Shown here: positions 50,757 to 52,705 of the stretch, one piece after another
Position numbering within the stretch: position 1 is the stretch's first letter
How the letters are laid out: every line of letters starts with the position of its first letter
NCBI RefSeq assembly: GCF_002335445.1
Contig: NZ_BDME01000002.1
Coordinates: 310,001 to 374,000, forward strand
From: Lebetimonas natsushimae
GTDB taxonomy: Bacteria; Campylobacterota; Campylobacteria; Campylobacterales; Nautiliaceae
DNA: 64,000 nucleotides
Direction: 5' to 3'
Translations under genes and position numbers: made by a program
The notes under the pieces: model-generated
What the model was told of the DNA's origin: nothing
What the model saw: only the letters and a program-made list of their open reading frames with translations
Databases searched by the model: none

Positions 50757-51383
50757 TTAAATCTCCAGTTTTCCCACTACTTTTCCTATAACATTTATTT
50801 CTTCCGGTTTTACCCTCTCTTTTGGGTATATTGAATTATCTGAAATTATTTCAATTTCCCCATTGCTTTTTAGATTTAATCTTTTTACGAACACACCCGC
50901 ATTTGTGGAAATTACAAAAATTCCTCCGTTTATTATGTTTTTGTCATTTCTGTCTATGAAAATTATATTTCCGTCTTTTAATGTTGGTTCCATTGAATCG
51001 CCTATTACATTAATGGCATCTAGATTTTTGTCTATTATTTTTTTATCAATATATAAAATTTCATAATTTTCATCAAAATTAATAGCTCCACCTCCGGCGC
51101 TTGCATTTATGTCTTTAAAATATCTGATTTGAGAAAATTTTTCGGTTTCATCTGCTATCGAATCGATAGTCTGGTCAAATAGAAGCCAATTTATTGATAT
51201 TTTTCTTTTTGCGCAAAAGAATGCTATTTCTTTGAAAGGAATTTTATTTCTTTTTTTTAGTATAGATAAATTCTCAGGTGTAAGATTCAGGGCATTTGCA
51301 ACATCTTTGTTTAATACTTTTCTGTCGCCTATTTCATTAGAGATGATATCTTTAATTTTTTCTATTATTTTTTCAAAATCCAT
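50757..51383 (-). CDS. S24/LexA-type transcriptional repressor (phage CI-like)
   Basis: A protein of about 208 residues, with an N-terminal helix-turn-helix (LNKDVANALNLTPENLSILKK) and a C-terminal S24 peptidase domain. Catalytic Ser is in VIGDSMEPTL, catalytic Lys in GVFVKRLNL, and an Ala-Gly cleavage site is in ASAGGGA. Start 51383 is chosen from AAGGAA 7 bases upstream; a longer frame to 51401 is possible. It is divergent from the Y-family polymerase gene with palindromes in between. The HTH differs from the winged-helix LexA, so this is a CI-type regulator rather than LexA itself. Confidence 0.88.
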   Translation of the reverse strand: MDFEKIIEKIKDIISNEIGDRKVLNKDVANALNLTPENLSILKKRNKIPFKEIAFFCAKRKISINWLLFDQTIDSIADETEKFSQIRYFKDINASAGGGAINFDENYEILYIDKKIIDKNLDAINVIGDSMEPTLKDGNIIFIDRNDKNIINGGIFVISTNAGVFVKRLNLKSNGEIEIISDNSIYPKERVKPEEINVIGKVVGKLEI

Positions 51384-51394
51384 TAATACTTTCC

Positions 51395-51409
51395 TTAACA
51401 ATTTGTTAA
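51395..51409. promoter_or_regulatory. 15-bp palindrome, candidate repressor operator 1
   Basis: TTAACAA-T-TTGTTAA is a perfect palindrome that begins at the S24 repressor ribosome-binding site region. It fits a site for autorepression. Confidence 0.5.
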
Positions 51410-51418
51410 TTTATCAAA

Positions 51419-51439
51419 TAACATTTTATCAAAATGTTA
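51419..51439. promoter_or_regulatory. 9-3-9 palindrome, candidate repressor operator 2
   Basis: TAACATTTT (51419-51427) and AAAATGTTA (51431-51439) are perfect inverted arms around ATC. TTATCAAA occurs twice nearby (51411-51418 and 51426-51433, 15 bp apart). The site is 30-50 bases before the polymerase GTG. Confidence 0.5.
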
Positions 51440-51469
51440 ATATTTTGTAAATAAATTAAAGGATTAAGG

Positions 51470-52705
51470 GTGAAAATACATCTTGATTTAGATGCATTTT
51501 TTGTAGCGGCTCACAGAAGTGTTGATTCATCTTTATTAAATAAACCGTGTGTTGTGGTAAAAAGAAATGATAAAGAAATTTTTAGTGAAAAAGCCAAAAT
51601 TTACAATTTAAATAAAGGTGCTTTTACTTCGGAAATAATAGTGAGTGAAAAAAAGCCTGATAAAAGTTACTTTTTAGAGAATGGGAGAATAAGGGGAATT
51701 ATAGTAACGGCAAGTTATGAAGCCAGAAAGTTTGGAATAAAAACGGGGATGACTTTAAAAGAAGCACTCAGTATTTATCCGGATCTTGAAGTAATTTTGC
51801 CTGATTATAAACTGTATCATCTGCTTTCATATAAATTAAAACTGTTTTTAAAAAGAAAAATCCCTGTGGTTGAACAATACAGTATTGATGAATTTTTTGG
51901 GGATTTGGAAGGCTGGGTGGAAAAAAATGATATGGAAAAGTTTTTAAAAAATTTACAAAAAGATATTTATGAAAAATTTAGGCTTCCTATTTCAATAGGG
52001 GCTGCAAAAAGTAAATGGATAGCAAAACTTGCCACAAATTACGCTAAACCTTACGGAATAAAGATAGTAAGAAATATTGATGAATTTATTGAAAATATTC
52101 CTATAGAAAAATTTCCCGGGATTGGTAAAAAGATAGAAAAAAGGCTTAAAGAAAAAGGAATTATTACTTTGGGTGATGTTAAGAAGAGTAAAGAATATTT
52201 TTATTCATGGGGAAAAAACGGAGTTGTTTTATATAACAGGGTTTGCGGTAGGGACAATGAGGAGGTAAAAGAAAAAGAAACAAGAAAAAGTATAGGTATT
52301 TCAAGAAGGTTTGATCCGATTTATGACAGGAGCGAAGCTGTAAGAAGGGTGGAGATTTTGTGCAGATATTTAGCTTTTTTAATTACAAAAAACAGATTAA
52401 ATCCGACTTTGTATTATTTAAAAATAAAATACAAATATTCAAAATCCCAAAAAGCCCATGTAAGGGTTGAGAGGATTTTTAACGAATTTTTATTAAAAGA
52501 GATTATGGTTATGCTTTTTTATAGGGCTGACAGTGAAGATGATTATATTATATCTTTGTCACTCAGTGTAGCTAGATTTAAAAAAGTAAGCAATTTGTTT
52601 GATTATAAAGTGGATAAAAAACTTGAAAGTTTAAATAAAGCTATTTATAAATTAAGGAGTAAATTTGGTCTCTCGGCTATTGTTACGGGAGGGGAGAAAA
52701 TTTAG
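51470..52705 (+). CDS. Y-family DNA polymerase (DinB/UmuC-like)
   Basis: A 411-residue translesion polymerase. The start is GTG at 51470 with AAAGGA upstream. It contains KIHLDLDAFFVAAHRSVD (first catalytic Asp), ASYEARKFGIKTGMTLKEA and YSIDEFFGDLEGW (YSIDE with catalytic Asp-Glu), then the HhH thumb (FPGIGKKIEKRLKEKG). A stretch of about 40 residues (KRNDKEIFSEKAKIYNLNKG) separates the first motif from the steric-gate finger region and is larger than in many DinB proteins. No beta-clamp motif is obvious. It is divergent from an S24 repressor, suggesting damage-inducible expression. Confidence 0.9.
   Translation: MKIHLDLDAFFVAAHRSVDSSLLNKPCVVVKRNDKEIFSEKAKIYNLNKGAFTSEIIVSEKKPDKSYFLENGRIRGIIVTASYEARKFGIKTGMTLKEALSIYPDLEVILPDYKLYHLLSYKLKLFLKRKIPVVEQYSIDEFFGDLEGWVEKNDMEKFLKNLQKDIYEKFRLPISIGAAKSKWIAKLATNYAKPYGIKIVRNIDEFIENIPIEKFPGIGKKIEKRLKEKGIITLGDVKKSKEYFYSWGKNGVVLYNRVCGRDNEEVKEKETRKSIGISRRFDPIYDRSEAVRRVEILCRYLAFLITKNRLNPTLYYLKIKYKYSKSQKAHVRVERIFNEFLLKEIMVMLFYRADSEDDYIISLSLSVARFKKVSNLFDYKVDKKLESLNKAIYKLRSKFGLSAIVTGGEKI

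Follow-up and report, generated by a model that had tools for sequence, protein, structure and literature searches.

How a bacterium without LexA might place a translesion DNA polymerase under the control of DNA damage is the question raised by two divergent genes in the genome of Lebetimonas natsushimae (Nautiliaceae), one encoding a repressor with an S24 peptidase domain, the other a Y-family polymerase. To our knowledge, the Campylobacterota are commonly described as lacking both LexA and an SOS response. The gene pair lies in a stretch of 64,000 nucleotides (contig 2, positions 310001-374000, of the 1.64-Mb genome), referred to below as the window. A preliminary description of this DNA had proposed SOS-like control without LexA, and this proposal is well supported by the absence of a LexA domain, the presence of RecA, the intact S24 residues, a predicted fold resembling those of 186 CI and LexA, and putative operators on both promoters. 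In our opinion, the locus is very probably a self-contained, LexA-independent SOS switch, in which an S24 repressor acting at two operators (O1 and O2) would cleave itself when triggered by RecA and so release the polymerase.

The repressor, the polymerase and their genomic setting

The orientation of the two genes and the 86-bp gap between them were borne out as first described (Table 1). The repressor is the only S24 protein of the genome, and the polymerase gene is present as a single copy, with no second Y-family enzyme. RecA is encoded in the same genome; as for lexA, for which the preliminary description had recommended a search, the LexA DNA-binding domain (PF01726) is absent from the genome as well as from the repressor protein. 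The polymerase keeps the DLD motif at positions 6-8 and the SIDE motif at 138. Among Y-polymerases, an epsilon-proteobacterial PolIV-like group has been named before (PMC6511836). By inspection, the neighbouring ORFs (clp, GGDEF, flagellar rod, sigma-70) look chromosomal.

Table 1. Features of the repressor-polymerase locus (positions refer to the window).
Feature	Position	Strand	Remarks
CI/LexA-like S24 repressor gene	50757..51383	-	208 aa, ATG start at 51383
Catalytic Lys167 codon (FVKR)	50883..50885	-	invariant in 91/91
Catalytic Ser130 codon (GDSMEP)	50994..50996	-	invariant in 91/91
Ala96-Gly97 self-cleavage site codons	51093..51098	-	position computed from sequence; invariant in 91/91 aligned relatives
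Ribosome-binding site of repressor (AAGGA)	51392..51396	-	sequence
Putative operator O1, TTAACAATTTGTTAA	51395..51409		follows the predicted transcript start of the repressor and precedes its ribosome-binding site
Second palindrome of the preliminary description	51419..51439		left arm 51419-51427 probably coincidental
Predicted extended -10 of repressor promoter, TTGATAAAAT (TGATATAAT in several relatives)	51423..51432	-	sequence and family conservation
Putative operator O2, TTATCAAAATGTTAA	51426..51440		over both predicted -10 elements; conserved sequence and spacing in family gaps
Predicted extended -10 of polymerase promoter, TGTTAATAT	51435..51443	+	sequence and family conservation
Ribosome-binding site of polymerase (AAGGA)	51459..51463	+	sequence
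Y-family translesion DNA polymerase gene	51470..52705	+	411 aa, GTG start; Pfam IMS E=3e-38, IMS_HHH; DNA polymerase IV models

The repressor contains a Pfam Peptidase_S24 domain (E=4e-21), preceded by a weak CI-type helix-turn-helix (HTH) match that is below Pfam's cut-off (E=0.004), and matches a phage transcriptional repressor PHROG (E=1e-32). It is not a canonical LexA by the TIGR00498 model, against which it scores 28.6 bits (cut-off 110.95), and profile matches showed that CI-type repressor families fit it better than UmuD does. While a sequence search of the PDB gave no useful match, an AlphaFold model built from a 22-sequence alignment (mean pLDDT 85) had the lambda-186 hybrid CI repressor as its best PDB match, followed by LexA, including LexA on the RecA filament. 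The modelled N-terminal domain is helical, which, together with the match to the 186 CI hybrid, is consistent with an HTH of the CI type. The Ser/Lys residues and the Ala-Gly site noted earlier are indeed intact and do not vary among the aligned relatives; this catalytic dyad and the location of the cleavage site between the two domains would place the protein among the S24 self-cleaving repressors of the CI/HdiR/FddR type. Close relatives of it come from Nautiliaceae MAGs (74-80% identical).

Operators and the proposed switch

The gap had been described as containing two perfect palindromes. Both occur exactly as written, each once in the window. It should be noted that, because the gap is AT-rich, palindromy by itself is weak evidence: dinucleotide shuffles of the gap contained a palindrome with an arm of at least 7 in 21% of cases and of at least 9 in 3%. 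The case for operators rests on sequence conservation instead. The first palindrome, O1, whose 15-mer has its sole perfect copy in the genome here, is kept next to the repressor at no fewer than 13/15 positions in 9/9 gaps of the window's family (labelled f1 in our analysis, which designates families as f1, f7 and so on), with the pattern TTAACAAWWTGTTAA. The second palindrome, in contrast, had been wrongly delimited. Its left arm TAACATTTT reads GTATATTTT in another genome of the same genus (G088) and is not kept in other family members, so that the 21-bp element was rejected as an operator; the conserved second element is TTATCAAAATGTTAA, and there are thus two putative operators, O2 differing from O1 by one mismatch and starting 31 bp away from it. 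This spacing is found in 8/9 family gaps and is 32 bp in the ninth, the second copy being less perfect. The asymmetry of O2 may arise because its left half doubles as the -10 element of the repressor promoter, while its right side runs into that of the polymerase promoter. The genome of G088 has another perfect site, located inside a gene, and the gap of family f4 carries a different motif that is not cleanly palindromic.

Much of the order retains the core CAA-W-TTG, with flanks that differ by family. A palindrome CA-n3-TG with up to two mismatches was present upstream of the repressor gene in 32 of 47 cases, most of them genomes in which the two genes are unlinked, against 1.4 expected. In the unlinked genomes, the repressor's operator was also found before the polymerase in 13/19 cases at p<0.05 (Fisher combined p-value 4e-13, calculated over genomes that, within a family, are not independent of each other). 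In part of f6 (G025, G041, G055, G118), the polymerase gene had no recognizable operator upstream. Judged from the sequences, the recognition helix varies together with the operator type: PE-x-[LF]-S pairs with the TTAACAA operator in f1 and most of f18, and [QH]-x-T-[LF]-ATMK with the TTTCAA operator in f7, f10 and most of f20. It is extremely unlikely that the palindromes are mere AT-rich promoter sequence and that the repressor acts elsewhere; such a view could draw on the shuffling frequencies given above, but the position, the sequence and the spacing of the elements are conserved, the operator is common in trans, and it is enriched genome-wide in relatives.

An operator is thus found both at the regulator gene and at a translesion polymerase, as in an SOS-like regulon, and the switch may be envisaged as follows. 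A repressor dimer would bind O1 and O2, which are about three helical turns apart. As O2 spans the two facing -10 elements, one dimer bound there would shut off the repressor gene and the polymerase gene together, and O1, just after the repressor start, would contribute autoregulation. RecA filaments formed on damaged DNA would cause the repressor to cut itself at Ala96/Gly97 by means of Ser130/Lys167, upon which both promoters would open and the polymerase would be made, until newly made repressor reset the switch. DNA binding, promoter positions, RecA-stimulated cleavage, damage induction and reset by resynthesis are all steps that we infer.

Distribution, origin and regulon in the order

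Both genes are clearly present in 81/150 genomes of the order, and in 48 of these 81 they are adjacent (49 loci). The pair is divergent at 45 loci, spread across the order; the four co-directional loci (L082-L085) all belong to f15 and have the repressor first in one operon, 14-20 bp from the polymerase, like umuDC. In a maximum-likelihood tree of 97 repressors, from which the HdiR and FddR sequences were left out, 14 label changes were counted for 12 groups, the least possible being 11 and the shuffled mean 73. The tree therefore tracks the host families, which argues for an old locus, vertically inherited in the window's family. Phage repressors branch outside, and the closest phage homologues, from Helicobacter prophages, are at most 38% identical. 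On this comparison of sequences, the pair is ancestral in the order, and the capture from a phage suggested by the preliminary description is unsupported as a recent event, although an ancient phage origin of the repressor is possible.

The same data bear on the idea that the two genes are what is left of a recent prophage or plasmid, with a repressor guarding the promoter of a mobile element and the polymerase as its cargo. This is very unlikely: phage repressor families are matched, and pairs do occur on plasmids in Aliarcobacter, Sulfurimonas and Sulfurospirillum, but the repressor tree follows the hosts with the phage proteins outside, the plasmid copies placed in it fall in a separate repressor clade with some f9/f20 sequences, and the ORFs flanking the pair in the window look chromosomal. 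For the window's locus, the remnant reading can be regarded as largely refuted. The plasmid-borne pairs are L307 (Aliarcobacter cibarius pACIB), L308 (Sulfurimonas aquatica pSULFM1) and L077/L074 (an apparent Sulfurospirillum diekertiae plasmid); some of the copies are near transposase genes, and in L308 both annotated genes overlap.

How many genes the repressor controls appears to depend on the family. A genome-wide search of L. natsushimae for further copies of the operator, as the preliminary description had advised, revealed no excess outside the gap, either for O1-like sites with up to two mismatches (96/100 vs 111/109) or with up to one (6/6 vs 10/6), and the recA promoter has no operator site. 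A wider regulon in this genome was consequently rejected, and the targets of the repressor would be its own gene and the polymerase only. Beyond the gap, one-mismatch sites either interrupt coding sequences or are found upstream of a pair of paralogous surface-protein genes or in the polA-divergent region. The surface-protein-like paralogues (L145 and L148; C1:816761, C3:3240) have the common upstream sequence GTAACAATTTGTTAA, one mismatch from O1, and are probably a case of duplicated promoters; TTAACATATTTTTAA, which in three genomes separates a polA-like gene from its divergent neighbour (L146, L174, L175), has one mismatch that breaks the core and is probably promoter sequence. A perfect TTAACAAATTGTTAA is located about 28 bp before a Cmr1-like gene (CRISPR type III, by eye) in one genome only (G015, L164:1501-1515).

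The switch had been called private, and this holds for the window's family, where extra sites are missing and recA is free, but not for the order, where a multi-gene repair regulon is apparent. The operator of the genome's own repressor precedes recA (p<0.01) in 8/9 genomes of f7, 2/2 of f6, 2/3 of f9, 1/2 of f16 and 2/4 of f20, as opposed to 0/4 in f1 and 0/4 in f18. Genome-wide site counts, compared with those of the reversed control, were 5-16 vs 0-2 in f7 genomes (e.g. 15 vs 0 and 16 vs 0), 8-13 vs 0 in f6, 1-5 vs 0-1 in f9 and 0-4 vs 0 in f16; f10 showed no excess. Other genes behind such sites include rmuC, recQ, radC (more than once), radA, recG, YifB/ComM, a UDG-linked radical-SAM repair protein, DNA methyltransferases and, repeatedly, integron integrases, while some sites are inside genes or before genes without an obvious link. 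Integron integrase genes with an S24 operator upstream are found at L218:539-1384 (-), L352:372-1388 (-), L231, L243, L245, L257 and L268. Matches to the LexA domain were rare across the order and, occurring in frames of 92, 438, 447 and >600 residues, were not judged to be LexA.

In several related families, therefore, the repressor would additionally govern recA and other repair genes, that is, a real SOS regulon. On the evidence of the predicted sites, the targets have the composition of an SOS regulon, under an unrelated operator and with no LexA, and the operator before recA, radA, recG, radC, rmuC, recQ and integron integrases makes an SOS response in these LexA-less relatives very probable. 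A different trigger is conceivable: the repressor could govern the polymerase through O1 and O2 but respond to heat, proteolysis or some other stress rather than to RecA on DNA. A RecA-independent exception among LexA-like proteins has been described, namely IrvR (PMC7101444), HdiR responds to heat as well (PMC8565304), and the vent relatives are thermophilic. We nevertheless regard this as unlikely, considering that the Ala-Gly, Ser and Lys residues are invariant, and that recA belongs to the predicted regulon in five families and many of the other targets are DNA-repair genes, as a RecA-driven SOS loop predicts.

At the repressor loci of f7, f9, f16, f17 and f20, a conserved ORF of 26-34 residues lies on the other side of the operator, divergent from the repressor gene (L106:1031-1114 (+), L111:414-497, L021:1292-1396, L095:500-595, L103:1023-1118, L109, L099 and others), its product ending in [KR][LIV][FL], e.g. 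MSLIIKNAETLFERFESKMELWAEKLF. Synonymous differences exceed non-synonymous ones (pS 0.54/0.58/0.71 vs pN 0.32/0.20/0.43 in f16/f20/f7, respectively), and the ORF possibly encodes a damage-induced amphipathic microprotein. In f6 the corresponding place is taken by another, dissimilar ORF, about 36 residues long. A similar short ORF is located between operator and polymerase in f10 and at some f20 and f7 loci (L020, L025, L029, L031, L050, L055, L057, L059, L069), where its stop codon at, or a few bases from, the polymerase start suggests translational coupling.

Taken together, we consider it likely that the Campylobacterota have a widespread ancestral SOS system based on a vertically inherited CI-type repressor, whose regulon ranges from the bare pair of the Nautiliaceae to one including recA, radA, recG, radC, rmuC, recQ, the radical-SAM repair gene and integron integrases, with the 26-34-residue microprotein added in several families.

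Significance and comparison with known systems

If this is true, the view of a whole bacterial order as devoid of an SOS response is overturned, and mutagenesis and integron recombination in vent and environmental bacteria would be under the control of DNA damage. A concrete regulator, with putative operators and candidate target genes, is now available for testing. A literature search, conducted mostly without subscription journals, found no description of such a system in Campylobacterota. A single repressor lineage that spans a two-gene unit at one end and a full regulon at the other, either of which may be ancestral, also bears directly on the proposal, based on Francisella, that divergent units are the starting point from which SOS networks grow.

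LexA is not the only S24 repressor known to direct an SOS network, be it small or large (PMC8565304, PMC13148647). In its working, the unit of the window would resemble FddR-dinB or HdiR-umuC. HdiR of Lactococcus lactis, a member of the LexA-less Streptococcaceae, is a CI-like S24 repressor of itself and of a UmuC-type polymerase, and in Streptococcus thermophilus recA is also among its targets (PMC8565304). However, HdiR belongs to another phylum and to an independent lineage that clusters with streptococcal phage repressors, whereas the repressor described here is vertically inherited across an order and, in several families of that order, has a wider regulon. FddR of Francisella, a co-opted phage-type S24 repressor found in divergent units and autoregulated through a palindrome, faces dinB in some species, and canonical SOS genes are not induced (PMC13148647); it differs in its GTG-N11-CAC operator and its restriction to one genus, while the present family has recA and repair genes among its targets in some lineages. 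The non-canonical LexA of Bacteroidetes is likewise a CI-type S24 repressor of an SOS network in a LexA-less phylum (PMC8565304), but it forms a protein family of its own, said to be confined to Bacteroidetes. UmuDAb of the LexA-less Acinetobacter, a damage-responsive repressor of error-prone polymerase genes (PMC8565304), is a UmuD derivative, unlike the protein of the window, which is closer to CI-type repressor families. The operators before integron integrase genes parallel the LexA control of intI known in other bacteria (PMC3108266). With LexA itself, the repressor shares the S24 peptidase domain, the predicted RecA-triggered self-cleavage and the SOS targets, but it has a CI-type HTH in place of the LexA winged-helix domain. 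The mechanism is therefore an ordinary one; what is new is the lineage, the operator and the regulon.
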